Assembly (NCBI RefSeq): GCF_001660705.2
Contig: NZ_LYBV02000038.1
Span: 1 to 64,000, forward strand
Source: Saccharicrinis aurantiacus
GTDB taxonomy: Bacteria > Bacteroidota > Bacteroidia > Bacteroidales > Marinilabiliaceae
Reading direction: 5' to 3'
DNA length: 64,000 nt
The first letter of the stretch is position 1. Each line of letters opens with the position of its first letter. A program made the translations under genes and the position numbers. Of the stretch, positions 2,290 through 6,744 are shown one piece after another. The notes beneath the pieces were generated by a model. The model was not told where the DNA came from, searched no databases, and was given only the letters and a program-made list of their open reading frames with translations.

Positions 2290-3921
2290 GTGAAAATGGC
2301 AGAAACAATTCATCAGGTATTAAGCGAAGCTATTGTTATTGATGATTTGAAGAAGCTATATACCATAGCAACAAACGGACAAATTGTTCCAAGAACTGAT
2401 TTTACAATGCTCTTTGGTAAGAAACTACGTAATCTAATTTCTGTGCTTTACGGCTATTCGAGTGGTGTTGGTGTGGCAAAGAAAACACTCACTGAAGCTC
2501 GCCAATATTCAGGTGTAAGCAAAGAAACGGCTGCACCTCTTTACAAGAACCTAAAAACCTATTACGATAAGCTCATTGAAAAACAACAAAAGTGCATTGA
2601 TTCAGCAAAACAGATTATCTCATCGGCAGATTTAAAAAGTCATAAATACAGTGATCTGACTTTTAGAGGCGGTATGCTTTCAAGTATGAATAGTATTCCT
2701 GAATATGTGAAGTATGTGGAGTCGGTTTGTACTCGCTTTATCAATGATTATATAAAGGAATTTGATACCAAAAAGGAGCATTTCCCATACAAAGAATTCA
2801 AACCAGATTGGTCATGGTCAGATACTAATCAAAAAAGAAAATCAGAAGGCAATACAAAGCCAAAAATAGCAGCCATAACGCTTAGCTATATTAAGCGCAC
2901 TGGTGGTTTGTTTATTGAGAAAGCAGATGAACAGACTGTCATTCATAAACTGCATTTTAAATCGATAACTCTAGGAAACTACGTAAAGGACAATGAAGCC
3001 CAGGAGCACATACGACATTTTGTGGCATCCATCGTTGACTTATGCGAGATATTGGATATTGATTTAAGTATAAATCAAAAGCTGGCCATCGGTTTTGGAG
3101 CATTTGGACGAGGAGGAAAAGCCATGGCAACCTATTATCCAACTCGGCAATTGATTAACCTCACCAAACGCAATGGTGATGGTTCTGTGGCGCACGAATG
3201 GGGACACTTTTTCGATCACTTTTTGAATGAATTTGGTTTGAGTAGGTTATCCCTATTATCGGAAACCACTTATGATTTAATCCTAGAGAAATTTGGTCGA
3301 AATAGAACTTACCTGAATAACTCAAAGAAATCATTCCGTAAGGCTTATTTCATAAGCACCCTGGCATATATAATAGAAACTGGAGTCACACAGACACCAT
3401 TCCATAAAAGCATGGCAGCGTTGGTGAGTATGATGCGTTTTGGATACAATCATGAAGATAAATCATTGATAAGTTTTACTGATGCGCATACAAACAGCAA
3501 AAAGTCAACCGATAGCTATTTGTACCACTATTCGAAACAACAAGGCTCCTATTGGAAGAATACGGCTGAACTATTTGCCAGAAGATTTGAATGCTACATC
3601 TACGATAAACTGAAGGAAAAGAATCGGGAGAATAATTACCTGGTATCAGGAGGAATGTTTGCCCATCCAGTTTACCCCCAGGGAAAAGAGCGCACGTACA
3701 TCAATAAGTGTTTCGATAATTTGATAGAAGCAGCAAAGGTGCAATTTAAACTCAAGTCCTTTACGCCATTCACCAAGCAAAGAGCAGATGAATATATCGA
3801 TTTGACTGAAAAAGGTGGTGTAAACAAGGGTGTAATTGTCGGTAAAGATCGAAAATTAGCTCTTGCAAAGATAAGAGCCAAAGCCATCCGCATCAAACAA
3901 AAGCAAGCACTAGCCAAATAG
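2290..3921 (+). CDS. LPD1-domain polyvalent protein with HEWGH metalloprotease-like motif
   Basis: 543-aa protein. Residues ~222-320 match the large polyvalent protein-associated domain LPD1 of phages and mobile elements: an LGNYV segment, then GFGAFGRGGKAMATYYP, INLTK and HEWGHFFDH. HEWGH at 302-306 is an HExxH zinc-peptidase motif. Polyvalent proteins are thought to be injected with phage or plasmid DNA. The listed start is GTG (2290), with ATG at 2296. The frame stays open upstream to 2215, into the duplication junction, with protein-like codons and no ATG, so the gene may have lost its true 5' end there. The 280-aa gene follows after 34 bp, as part of one operon. Confidence is good for the domain and low for the biological role. 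Confidence 0.85.
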   Translation: MKMAETIHQVLSEAIVIDDLKKLYTIATNGQIVPRTDFTMLFGKKLRNLISVLYGYSSGVGVAKKTLTEARQYSGVSKETAAPLYKNLKTYYDKLIEKQQKCIDSAKQIISSADLKSHKYSDLTFRGGMLSSMNSIPEYVKYVESVCTRFINDYIKEFDTKKEHFPYKEFKPDWSWSDTNQKRKSEGNTKPKIAAITLSYIKRTGGLFIEKADEQTVIHKLHFKSITLGNYVKDNEAQEHIRHFVASIVDLCEILDIDLSINQKLAIGFGAFGRGGKAMATYYPTRQLINLTKRNGDGSVAHEWGHFFDHFLNEFGLSRLSLLSETTYDLILEKFGRNRTYLNNSKKSFRKAYFISTLAYIIETGVTQTPFHKSMAALVSMMRFGYNHEDKSLISFTDAHTNSKKSTDSYLYHYSKQQGSYWKNTAELFARRFECYIYDKLKEKNRENNYLVSGGMFAHPVYPQGKERTYINKCFDNLIEAAKVQFKLKSFTPFTKQRADEYIDLTEKGGVNKGVIVGKDRKLALAKIRAKAIRIKQKQALAK

Positions 3922-3955
3922 GAAAAATAGGAACTAAAACGTAATACAGATAGAT

Positions 3956-4798
3956 ATGAAACTTACAATAAAGAACTACAAAGAAGCTACCAAAAGCATT
4001 GATTTTAAGAAATTACCAGAGGTCGCTCAGGAAGCCCATAAGGAGTTTGATTCATTTGCCGATTTCTACAATGAGGATAAGGATATCAAAGAGATGTTGG
4101 ATAATCACTTTAAGATTGTGGAGCCTTATCTAAAAGATACCCCTAAGAAGAGTACATCCCCAAAGAAAGCACCTGCAAAAAAGGTTAGCACAAAATCTAA
4201 AGCACCAAAGAAAAAGACAACAGCAGGTAAAACGACTCGGCAGCCCAAACAGGCCCAACGAAAAGCCATTGAAGTGGATTTAATCCCCATGGAAATAAAG
4301 GTAATTAGGCGCTACCTGAATTTTCATAACAAGAGCGTTACCGAACGTCAGGTGTCACTTTTATATAAGGTCATTCAGAAGGCAGCTACTGAGAAAACCA
4401 TCCGAAAAACAAGTAAGTATGCCTCAGAGATTAAAAGTATCAGCAATGATTTGATTAAGACTTATAAGGAGATGAATGCTACCTGTAAGTTTGAAGTTCC
4501 TACTTCAATTTACACGAAGCTGAAAAATATTGTGGATGACTATGGCGTTACCCCGGCTGTTGGACTTATTAAACGTTTTATAAATCTGTATGGCAACATC
4601 ACAAAGGAAAAAGCACAACGACTACTCACGACCATTACCAATTCCCTGAAGAATGGAAAAGTAAAGCAATCTGAAAAGGAGTACGATCAGATTAAGAAGG
4701 TACAAAAGCATTTAAACGATTACCTGGAAAGTGATAAATTGCTAGTCACAAGCGTTCAACTCAATGGCCTAAAAGGAATAGCTGGATTGGGAAAGTAA
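3956..4798 (+). CDS. Lysine-rich 280-aa phage protein (right copy)
   Basis: Unrecognised 280-aa protein: acidic helical N-terminus, a basic Lys/Pro/Ser/Thr linker at about 61-105, and a helical Lys-rich C-terminal half. No membrane segments. Its last codons read GGA AAG TAA, preceded by G, making the slippery heptamer GGGAAAG at 4789-4795. A -1 slip there continues into the ATPase frame and gives a predicted 491-aa fusion (280 + 211). The paralogue at 879-1721 has the same ending. Differences between the copies are largely synonymous, so the protein is under purifying selection. A DNA-binding or packaging role is only a guess from its basic linker and phage context. Confidence 0.85.
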   Translation: MKLTIKNYKEATKSIDFKKLPEVAQEAHKEFDSFADFYNEDKDIKEMLDNHFKIVEPYLKDTPKKSTSPKKAPAKKVSTKSKAPKKKTTAGKTTRQPKQAQRKAIEVDLIPMEIKVIRRYLNFHNKSVTERQVSLLYKVIQKAATEKTIRKTSKYASEIKSISNDLIKTYKEMNATCKFEVPTSIYTKLKNIVDDYGVTPAVGLIKRFINLYGNITKEKAQRLLTTITNSLKNGKVKQSEKEYDQIKKVQKHLNDYLESDKLLVTSVQLNGLKGIAGLGK

Positions 4799-4844
4799 AC
4801 ACCACTACTGCGTCGCCCAAAAGTAGTGGTACAAGAACAAGGGC
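4789..4844 (+). promoter_or_regulatory. Programmed -1 frameshift signal (right copy)
   Basis: The parts in order are: GGGAAAG (4789-4795), phased G GGA AAG in the 280-aa frame; the TAA stop and AC as a 5-nt spacer; a 9-bp stem, ACCACTACT (4801-4809) with AGTAGTGGT (4822-4830); and GCCC in the loop (4815-4818), able to pair with GGGC (4841-4844) as a second pseudoknot stem. Slipping back one base reads GGG AAA GTA AAC, which is exactly the open frame of the ATPase. Spacer length and geometry match known -1 frameshift elements. Confidence 0.8.
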
Positions 4845-4878
4845 AGTAAATCAGTCTATCTCAGTTTCGCCAGATCAA

Positions 4879-5430
4879 GTGGTATCAGCTAGTGAATTGG
4901 CTCAAATGAAGTTTTCAACTTTACGCATTGGCGGTAAGTTTGGTAAACTACTAGGGCAACCTTACAGCCCATTTTATCTGATGATTTATGGTAAGCGATT
5001 CAATGGAAAAAGTTCGGTAGCCATGTTGCTGGCCAATGTTCTGGTGAAGAGCAAACTTAAAGTACTTTATATCTCCAACGAAGAAGGCGTAAAAGCCTCG
5101 CTTCAGGAAAAGTTATTGCGTTTGAATATCACGCAGCCTATTGATTTTGTGGAAGATTATAACCCGAAGCAATTTAGAGTATACGATGTGGTATTCTTTG
5201 ATAGTACCCAAACCATAGGTATTAAACCTGATGATTTTAAAGCATTGAAGAGGCAATTCCCCAATACATCATTTGTGCTTGTTTTTAAAGCCAATCGTGA
5301 TGGTACATCAAAAGGCGGAAGCGACTGGGAGCATGATTGTGATGCCATTATGCACATCGAAAATCAATCAGCTACCATGGAGAAAAACCGTTTTCCCAAC
5401 GGTAGTAACGAAACCATTAAAATATTCTAA
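4879..5430 (+). CDS. RecA-like P-loop ATPase (right copy), probably made by -1 frameshift
   Basis: 183 aa from a GTG codon. The frame is actually open from 4738 and most likely entered at 4795 by -1 frameshifting from the 280-aa gene. Walker A is GKRFNGKS (38-45); Walker B is VVFFD (104-108). The segment between has the strand-helix order of the RecA/RadA/DnaB core, but the protein is short and lacks a helicase DnaB N-domain. The upstream linker (4795-4878) is Thr/Ser/Pro-rich, like an interdomain tether. It ends 2 bp before the next gene. The role in the phage (DNA handling or packaging) is not known. Confidence 0.85.
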   Translation: MVSASELAQMKFSTLRIGGKFGKLLGQPYSPFYLMIYGKRFNGKSSVAMLLANVLVKSKLKVLYISNEEGVKASLQEKLLRLNITQPIDFVEDYNPKQFRVYDVVFFDSTQTIGIKPDDFKALKRQFPNTSFVLVFKANRDGTSKGGSDWEHDCDAIMHIENQSATMEKNRFPNGSNETIKIF

Positions 5431-5432
5431 TC

Positions 5433-5765
5433 ATGGAAGAAATGACCATAAAATTCTACTGGGTAGTCATAGCAGCCATTAGCTCATTAATCGTGGGTGT
5501 TTTGTCTTACATCATTAGAAATGCACTGGCAAAAAATGCGACTAAAGAAACGGTGGAGGCCAAAACAGACCTGCTTGAAAAGGACATAAAACACTTGGCA
5601 AAGGAACTGAATTTATGTGAAGGAAAGTTTGCCGTATTGCACAAACGCATATCCGATTTAAGGGATAGTTCCAAGGAAATATACGTGAGCAAGGAGCTAT
5701 TCCATCAAACCATAAAACAGCTTAACGAGAAGCTAGATACCATACTAAAATTTGTAGAGAAATGA
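5433..5765 (+). CDS. Membrane-anchored coiled-coil protein of the lysis region
   Basis: 110 aa: one N-terminal transmembrane helix (about 8-28), then a long charged helical region with heptad-like spacing (about 35-110). It overlaps the next gene by 4 bp and follows the ATPase stop by 2 bp, so it is translationally coupled. The form resembles small phage proteins found beside holins and endolysins (accessory lysis or spanin-like), but I cannot assign a named family. A partial second copy lies at 1-238. Confidence 0.75.
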   Translation: MEEMTIKFYWVVIAAISSLIVGVLSYIIRNALAKNATKETVEAKTDLLEKDIKHLAKELNLCEGKFAVLHKRISDLRDSSKEIYVSKELFHQTIKQLNEKLDTILKFVEK

Positions 5766-6172
5766 GAAAACTATTTTCAAAACTAAGCAACGCAGGAGTT
5801 GCAAGCACACTAAAAGAAGGAACAAAACTGATAGATGAAATTTTCACCACCAAGGAGGAAAAGCTCCAGGGTAAAATGGAACTTTTCAAAATGGCTGTTT
5901 CAGACCGAGACTCAGCACGAAATATGTATGCCAAAGACAACTGGTTACAAAAGACCTTTGCAATCTTCTTCCTGATTGCATGGTGTACTTTAACACTTGT
6001 GATGCTTAATTATTTCGTGTTTCAAACCATTGAATTACAAGATTGGCAAATTGCCTTTATAAGCAGTATCAATGGCGGCATATCCACCAAACTAAGCACG
6101 ATAATCGACTTCCTTTTTGGAGGTTCAATAAGTGGAGTAAATGATGTAAAACTGAAATCTAAACGATCATGA
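5762..6172 (+). CDS. Holin-like phage membrane protein
   Basis: 136 aa. An amphipathic, charged N-terminal half (including a DRDSARxMYxxDNW segment at about 49-63) leads to two hydrophobic stretches: about 67-90, and a Gly/Ile/Ser-rich one near 98-125. The layout, with soluble helix first, hydrophobic segments last and a basic tail, is that of the 3TM holin family of phages and gene-transfer agents. It sits directly before the GH108 endolysin, with a 4-bp overlap. It would form membrane lesions that let the endolysin reach peptidoglycan. Confidence 0.75.
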   Translation: MRKLFSKLSNAGVASTLKEGTKLIDEIFTTKEEKLQGKMELFKMAVSDRDSARNMYAKDNWLQKTFAIFFLIAWCTLTLVMLNYFVFQTIELQDWQIAFISSINGGISTKLSTIIDFLFGGSISGVNDVKLKSKRS

Positions 6173-6744
6173 AACATATAAAAACATTTGAGGAGCTCTT
6201 TGCTGGAGTTATCAAGCACGAAGGATATTATGCCAATGTAGAAGGCGACCGTGGTGGTGAAACTTATATGGGTGTTGCAAGAAATTTGCATCCTGATTGG
6301 AATGGCTGGAAGTATATTGATGCATATAAAGAGACCTATGGAAGTATTAAGAGGAATTTTAAAATAGATGTTCCGGAACTAACACAATTGGTTAAAGAAT
6401 TCTACAAAGCAGAGTTCTATCATCTATATAATATTGATAAAATTAAACATGGTTCCCTACAAGAAATCATCTTTGATTGGTGTGTCAATAGCGGCCATTG
6501 GGGAGCCAGAGGTGTTCAAAGAACTTTAAACCAGTTCTTCGATTATGAACTTAAAATGGATGGGATTATTGGTAAACAAACGTTAATGGCTATCGATAAA
6601 TGCCATACTCAAACAGTATTTGATGCTATAAAAATGGCTAGAATCAATTATTATCACACAATAGCCAAGCGAGGACAGAACTTTAAGTTTTTAAACGGGT
6701 GGTTGAAGAGGGTCAGTGAGATTAAATATGACAGTGATCTTTAA
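6169..6744 (+). CDS. GH108 endolysin (N-acetylmuramidase)
   Basis: 191 aa. The N-terminal half carries the GH108 signature: a KHEGYY segment with the expected catalytic Glu (E18), then GDRGGETYMGVA (26-37). The C-terminal part (about 115-185), with a DGIIGKQTLMAI segment, matches the small peptidoglycan-binding domain usually attached to GH108. There is no signal peptide, so export would depend on the holin upstream. It is the last phage gene seen; beyond it the chromosome resumes with a gene on the other strand. Confidence 0.9.
   Translation: MKHIKTFEELFAGVIKHEGYYANVEGDRGGETYMGVARNLHPDWNGWKYIDAYKETYGSIKRNFKIDVPELTQLVKEFYKAEFYHLYNIDKIKHGSLQEIIFDWCVNSGHWGARGVQRTLNQFFDYELKMDGIIGKQTLMAIDKCHTQTVFDAIKMARINYYHTIAKRGQNFKFLNGWLKRVSEIKYDSDL

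Follow-up and report, generated by a model that had tools for sequence, protein, structure and literature searches.

Gene A and the RadA-like ATPase frame that follows it are very probably linked by a programmed −1 ribosomal frameshift, which would yield both the A protein and an A–linker–RadA-like ATPase fusion. The features concerned, all within the window (the whole 64,000-nucleotide stretch of Saccharicrinis aurantiacus DNA analysed here), are collected in Table 1.

The predicted frameshift signal and its two copies in the window

Gene A ended in ...TTG GGA AAG TAA, and the ATPase frame was −1 relative to it. The original prediction of a GGGAAAG in phase just before a stop codon, followed by a 5-nt spacer, a 9-bp stem and possibly a second stem of 4 bp, was confirmed, each element being found at the position given for it. 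It also held that a −1 slip leads into the ATPase frame through an open Ser/Thr/Pro-rich linker and gives a fusion of about 491 aa; the lengths agreed (280 + 211 = 491 aa), and the linker was free of stops in the ATPase frame in all 38 homologues described below.

Table 1. Positions in the window of the putative frameshift module, its inverted second copy and the adjacent genes
Feature	Position	Strand	Remarks
Gene A	3956–4798	+	280 aa; zero-frame product terminates at the frameshift signal
Slippery heptamer G_GGA_AAG	4789–4795	+	In phase with gene A
Zero-frame stop TAA	4796–4798	+	Abuts the heptamer; TAA in 38/38 homologues
Spacer TAAAC	4796–4800	+	5 nt
Stem 1, 5' arm	4801–4809	+	Pairs with 4822–4830
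Stem 1, 3' arm	4822–4830	+	Pairs with 4801–4809
Stem 2 (pseudoknot), 5' arm GCCC in the stem-1 loop	4815–4818	+	
Stem 2 (pseudoknot), 3' arm GGGC	4841–4844	+	
Ser/Thr/Pro-rich linker, −1 frame only	4795–4878	+	Open in 38/38 homologues
RadA/Sms-like P-loop ATPase, MEKNRFP motif	4879–5430	+	Would be entered by −1 slip
Upstream gene, LPD1 (polyvalent-protein) domain	2290–3921	+	Context
Downstream coiled-coil protein, holin-like protein, GH108 lysozyme	5433–6744	+	Context
Gene A of the inverted second copy	879–1721	−	Heptamer 882–888, TAA 879–881
Stem 1 (876–868/855–847) and stem 2 (862–859/836–833), second copy	833–876	−	
Linker and ATPase of the second copy	241–882	−	Linker longer by 6 bases, in frame

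We propose that ribosomes ending gene A would arrive at G_GGA_AAG and be held there by the stem or pseudoknot 5 nt downstream, and that tRNA-Gly(UCC) and tRNA-Lys(UUU) would slip from GGA/AAG to GGG/AAA. The ribosomes that shift, a minority, would then read on through GTA AAC ... to produce the A–linker–RadA-like ATPase (491 aa), while the others would stop at TAA and release A (280 aa). The purpose may be a set ratio, with a few RadA-like recombination motors carried by A.

The decoding capacity of the host was in keeping with this scheme. The sole tRNA-Lys among the 68 tRNA matches listed had the anticodon UUU (ARAGORN, 150 of 495 candidates scored), which suits the slip; this tRNA set is incomplete, given the fraction of candidates scored, an assembly in 69 contigs and the lack of any tRNA-Ile among the matches. 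With this set, AAG is read by the UUU tRNA-Lys, whose anticodon is a full match to AAA once the slip has occurred. For glycine, the anticodons UCC and GCC were among the matches listed; GGA is read by UCC, which can pair with GGG by wobble. The tRNA search also revealed seven tandem tRNA-Asp(GTC) genes elsewhere in the host genome (L185, G000:C9:51916–52780).

The module was present twice in the window, the inverted copy (3–2217) being 94–95% identical. Correspondingly, GGGAAAGTAA occurred twice against 0.24 expected, a count reached by 2 of 100 shuffles, and both occurrences were this signal because the module has its inverted copy there. The inverted duplication, 3–2217 (−) and 3460–5668 (+), lies at the left end of contig C32 and is joined inside two LPD1 gene fragments. 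The two copies diverge by 5–6% and therefore do not represent a palindromic assembly of a single copy; a mis-join of repeat copies is a possible origin of the arrangement. The host genome contained five close copies of the module, and a pattern made of the heptamer, TAA and the start of the stem matched at exactly these five, with zero matches in the host genome for the reversed control pattern.

Conservation of the signal among close homologues

Matches to the ATPase were found in 30 of 71 genomes of the family (E 1e-4) and 33 of 393 of the order (E 1e-8). At E 1e-15 the class gave 48 matching genomes and the phylum 4, out of 395 each; the draws overlapped across ranks. In close relatives (about 58–100% identity) a short open frame held the ATPase alone, and in most of the distant relatives fetched it lay in one long frame, preceded by 168–519 residues. 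Carriers of the close relatives included Carboxylicivirga, Plebeiobacterium, Breznakibacter, Gaoshiqia and other Bacteroidales; close relatives with the same signal were also found on two plasmids of Persicobacter psychrovividus (Cytophagales). Two IMG/VR contigs of approximately 45 kb contained the module, as found by the DNA pattern and then by alignments. A third pattern match there (L169) was unrelated and was rejected, another contig (L177) held a weak gene A relative (32%), and an IMG/VR search with short peptides of a single protein gave no match. In the phage collection, ATPase relatives were only weak (24–35% identity).

The set of assessable, distinct close homologues comprised 38 sequences. 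Entry required that a gene 90 codons or longer end in −1 geometry before the ATPase; since the rule used geometry only, that geometry was part of the selection and the heptamer and stem were not. Left out were L010 and L043 (contig ends), L064 (upstream gene lost) and G009:C139 (partial, at a contig end), and removal of L129 (34% identity, with the split but no heptamer) took the number from 39 rows to 38. The homologue alignment called for by the original prediction showed that the heptamer with its TAA, the following stem and the open linker were kept throughout these 38. A shifty heptamer followed by TAA was present in every one: GGGAAAG in 36, GGAAAAG in L053 and AAAAAAG in L118. The X_XXY_YYZ pattern in the zero frame was matched by 37 of the 38, L053 matching in the second half only. 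The viral contig L168 was a 39th sequence agreeing with the signal. The linker varied from 21 to 78 codons, and it was the ATPase frame that stayed free of stops in 38/38, the other two frames having stops in 25 and 38 sequences. Judged on this comparison, the signal is not a product of chance.

The folding energy of the 9-bp stem in the window was −12.6 kcal/mol (z −1.5), and 14 of 200 shuffles folded equally well or better. Because it is weak against shuffles, the window hairpin is no more than suggestive on its own and the homologue comparison carries the weight. A stimulatory RNA structure is expected about 5–9 nt downstream of a slippery site; here the stem started 5 nt past the heptamer, or 3–4 nt where extra outer pairs formed (6 of 34 folded sequences). 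Among 30 distinct 69-nt signal sequences, seven with another stem register (L040, L041, L044, L045, L046, L118 and L170) were kept outside the pair count. The 13 pairs (nine in stem 1, four in stem 2) were formed in 98.7% of cells across the 23 in-register sequences, a count that leans to the main register as those seven were left out; slid structures gave 23–50%. Compensatory double changes occurred at 4 of the 13 pairs, which 1 of 500 shuffles reached. They were G-C/A-U, A-U/G-C and U-A/C-G in stem 1 and C-G/U-A in stem 2. Neither the paired percentage nor the covariation score was reached by any of 500 shuffles. Four of five shuffle measures were thus above chance (at most 1 in 500 as high), and the fifth, further pair types, was not (497/500 as high). 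The seven other-register sequences, folded singly, formed an equivalent stem 5 nt past the heptamer, and in the Persicobacter stem an A-U pair was again swapped for G-C.

Stem 2 was paired in 98.9% of cells in the 23 in-register rows and reached 6–7 bp in much of the Carboxylicivirga/Plebeiobacterium group. Taken alone, its covariation consisted of a single compensatory pair (18 of 500 shuffles), and in L118 and L170 it was not above chance. From these patterns we read stem 2 as a putative pseudoknot in most members and as a plain hairpin in some.

The two frames might also arise through transcript slippage, the polymerase realigning on the template. The homologue L118, with six A's in its AAAAAAG, would suit such realignment, but the runs in GGGAAAG are of at most three bases, and the conserved downstream structure and its spacing fit slipping by the ribosome; we consider a polymerase origin exceedingly improbable.

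Codon usage along the module pointed to a constraint on the RNA. Across 619 sequence pairs with ATPase DNA identity below 85%, the same-codon fraction averaged 0.48 (411 usable columns). Only nine of these columns had a fraction of 1.0, and six of the nine were codons of the heptamer or stem (GGA, AAG, GTA, ACC, ACT and AGT in the window). Three further stem codons varied synonymously, with fractions of 0.69, 0.91 and 0.47, the last because of the compensated outer pair. In the 14 columns from GTA on, synonymous differences per codon pair fell to 0.107, the end of gene A having 0.386 and the ATPase 0.368; non-synonymous differences were not reduced (0.397, compared with 0.320 and 0.275, respectively). 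Synonymous change is suppressed at the signal while the amino acids are free to vary, and therefore it is the RNA and not the protein that is constrained.

Alternatively, the ATPase could have a start of its own, at GTG 4879 or ATG 4906, perhaps coupled to the gene A stop, with the heptamer incidental. It had been claimed that the ATPase frame has no ATG and only a weak GTG, which is true upstream of GTG 4879; there is, however, an ATG at 4906. The GTG was a GTG in only 13 of 38 homologues, and is therefore not a conserved start. The ATG was an ATG in all 38, and the Persicobacter pPP10 record has the ATPase as a gene in its own right, beginning at the equivalent codon inside its domain, which illustrates how annotation can split such a fusion. 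This codon lies, however, nine codons inside the conserved ATPase domain, and its persistence is explained by protein conservation, Met having a single codon; being conserved within the domain, it may give rise to a minor, truncated ATPase beside the fusion. The original prediction had named unfused ATPases without the heptamer as the refuting case, and such sequences were found among distant relatives only. Of the 19 unfused rows checked outside the 38, 17 lacked the heptamer, L168 had it and L064 was truncated; the 17, which speak for the separate-gene reading, were all distant and included free-standing ATPases with their own ATG. A separate start leaves unexplained the stop-free linker in 38/38, the invariant heptamer codons and the compensated stem, and we regard it as very unlikely compared with the programmed frameshift.

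Gene A, the ATPase and their hard-fused relatives

The ATPase appears to be RadA/Sms-like. It has Walker A (GKRFNGKS), Walker B (VVFFDS) and MEKNRFP motifs; the ATPase motifs were intact in the 16 aligned proteins of the programmed ribosomal frameshift (PRF) clade, which all had KNRFP, and several fused relatives had KNRFG. The KNRFG motif has been described as RadA-specific and required for branch migration (PMC4786428). The best NCBIfam model was TIGR00416 (RadA/Sms), with E-values of 0.011 (window) and 8e-7 (fused relative L068), both far below the cut-off and covering part of the core only. No zinc finger or Lon-like C-terminal domain was matched in the ATPase, which stops just past the motif. 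It matched PHROG 6891 ("ATPase") with E 2e-24 and a Sak4-like family with E 0.002. The structural model of the ATPase resembled RadA 8rxc in Foldseek (probability 1.00, TM 0.44–0.47), and its best viral fold match was a DnaB-like helicase; at a pLDDT of 59 these fold matches are no more than supportive. A search of PDB sequences with the ATPase profile returned weak nucleoporin matches only, taken as chance, and zero Rfam families were found in the window at the gathering score. Compared with RadA/Sms of E. coli and S. pneumoniae, the protein has a KNRF motif and a predicted P-loop RecA-like core but is below the family cut-off, has no matched zinc finger or Lon-like domain, and is joined to gene A.

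Gene A was predicted to be helical, with a basic middle rich in Lys, Ala and Pro (histone H1-like), and its product probably binds DNA and self-associates. An AlphaFold2 model built from 16 sequences was set aside, its pLDDT of 50 being too poor for a structure search. Between 4280 and 4740, gene A may contain an internal repeat, the MPMEIKVIRRYLNFHNK region resembling the VTPAVGLIKRFINLYGN region (second hhalign alignment, probability 44%).

In 44 of 51 relatives with a long frame, the gene A profile matched the part before the ATPase (E 1.6e-46 to 1.8e-5); the other seven (L088, L089, L091, L096, L134, L152 and L166) had another N-terminus with no gene-A part. An alignment of 20 fused relatives matched gene A over 283 columns, through its last residue (E 3e-36). 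The host genome itself has a distant hard-fused relative on contig C20 (L039/L006, G000:C20:261203–265754), a 618-aa open frame with 29% identity in the ATPase and an E-value of 1.6e-46 for the gene-A part.

A stop and a frame change between parts that are fused in so many relatives could be read as a decayed gene or a sequencing error. The same frame change, with a shifty heptamer and TAA, was nevertheless present in 38/38 homologues, including named strains and Cytophagales plasmids, and the ATPase motifs were intact in the 16 aligned proteins; decay or error thus has almost no chance of accounting for the split, and a programmed frameshift remains our reading of it.

On a tree of 108 ATPases, built by a quick method with SH-aLRT support only and with long branches present, the PRF and fused rows were one change apart, in either direction. 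To count as "fused", a row needed an open stretch of 150 residues or more ahead of the ATPase; the gene-A part was checked afterwards. The four changes counted for the PRF group resulted from the labelling of L168, which bears the signal, as "short", and from unassessable rows. Five fused-form genomes were searched, alongside the genome of the window, for a gene A standing apart from the ATPase; no clear example appeared in the five, which gave only the fused genes and two weak extra matches in other frames (G037 and G057). The ratio of A to fusion is therefore not needed in those genomes.

Two other arrangements were observed. In L123 and L079 (G417:C47) the upstream gene ends in eight A's before TAA and the ATPase is in a +1-direction frame, which may reflect transcript slippage or a homopolymer error. 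In L129 (reverse complement, about position 2980 of G138:C136) gene A and the ATPase are split by a TGA with −1 geometry and no slippery heptamer; the sequence sits within the fused group.

Known frameshift systems and the mobile element

GGGAAAG is the heptamer of the lambda G/GT frameshift, and −1 frameshifts in bacteria are usually found in tail chaperones, IS transposases and dnaX. The present signal is a probable, conserved −1 frameshift beyond these usual places, in Bacteroidota. As for lambda gpG and gpGT, the same heptamer would give two products, a short one and a longer one whose C-terminal domain is translated in the −1 frame. The differences are several: neither gene A nor the ATPase had a tail-chaperone match in PHROGs or Pfam; genes for LPD1, holin-like and lysozyme proteins are their neighbours, where a lambda-type chaperone would stand before the tape measure gene; the C-terminal addition is a RadA-like ATPase; there is no gap between heptamer and stop; the stem/pseudoknot is conserved; and hard-fused relatives exist. 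G_GGA_AAG is highly shift-prone in E. coli, and the gpG:gpGT ratio in lambda is 30:1 (PMC5009743). By analogy, the ratio of A to fusion may matter here as well. We tentatively suggest, giving it rather less than an even chance, that a lineage of approximately 45-kb Bacteroidota elements (possibly unusual or tailless phages) gained the frameshift signal, turning a hard-fused DNA-binding protein/RadA-like motor into a ratio-controlled pair with few motor subunits in a mostly motor-less complex, as gpGT among gpG. The existence of hard-fused relatives, including one in this very genome, offers a natural comparison that makes the role of a frameshift-set ratio testable for a recombination-type ATPase.

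Split-by-frameshift and fused forms of one protein are known for magnesium chelatase and a cyclic-nucleotide phosphodiesterase (PMC3711429); the present case is alike in this respect and concerns a different gene family, in a mobile element. Programmed frameshifts have also been inferred in the reverse transcriptase gene of the gut phage Quimbyvirus (PMC8008677). SMS/RadA domains have been described in polyvalent proteins of Bacteroidetes conjugative elements or plasmids, with a suggested role on incoming DNA, in a study which also covers LPD1 and strawberry-notch ATPases (Iyer et al. 2017, PMC5512222). The RadA-like ATPase in Bacteroidetes is shared with that system, and LPD1 and strawberry-notch are likewise near the present module; the word "frameshift" had 0 occurrences in the main text of the study. 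The full texts searched (including PMC3711429, PMC10885494, PMC8008677, PMC5009743 and PMC5512222), a set with most subscription papers and recoded-gene databases outside its scope, gave no account of frameshifting that adds a RadA-like ATPase. On sequence grounds, the module is apparently a real and conserved case of the standard −1 mechanism, new for this gene pair.

Around the module, here or in relatives, were genes for a strawberry-notch helicase, an LPD1 protein, a DnaG-type primase, methylases and a tyrosine integrase, together with lysis-related neighbours (a transglycosylase/endolysin-like protein, a holin-like protein, and a lysozyme or amidase). Of the neighbouring genes scanned, not all of them against both libraries, none was recognisable as a capsid, terminase, portal or conjugation gene, and the label "phage" is therefore unproven. 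With its lysis-type cassette and its presence in IMG/VR contigs, the element of approximately 45 kb is likely, though unproven, to be a phage, yet it also occurs on a plasmid. This 53-kb circular Persicobacter plasmid, pPP10 (L170, NZ_AP025302.1), has a similar gene set plus ParA/ParB, replication proteins and an amidase, and is possibly a phage-plasmid.

A neighbouring protein of approximately 280 aa was strongly conserved (L136:4290–5132, L138:1313–2155, L135:13585–14430 and L170:1986–2828). Its N-terminus is first acidic and then Arg-rich. It had no match in PHROGs or in phage records, and PDB sequences gave E 0.26 or worse; it is a candidate virion or DNA-binding protein. The protein was common to PRF- and fused-type genomes; in G036, G037, G038 and G054 it shared a contig with the fused gene, and in G057 the two were on separate contigs. 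Both forms therefore sit in related elements. Variable, defence-like cargo was observed in related elements (L174:17064–18474 and L137:5047–16312), comprising Abi_alpha, DUF6946, type I restriction-modification and a GmrSD-type nuclease.
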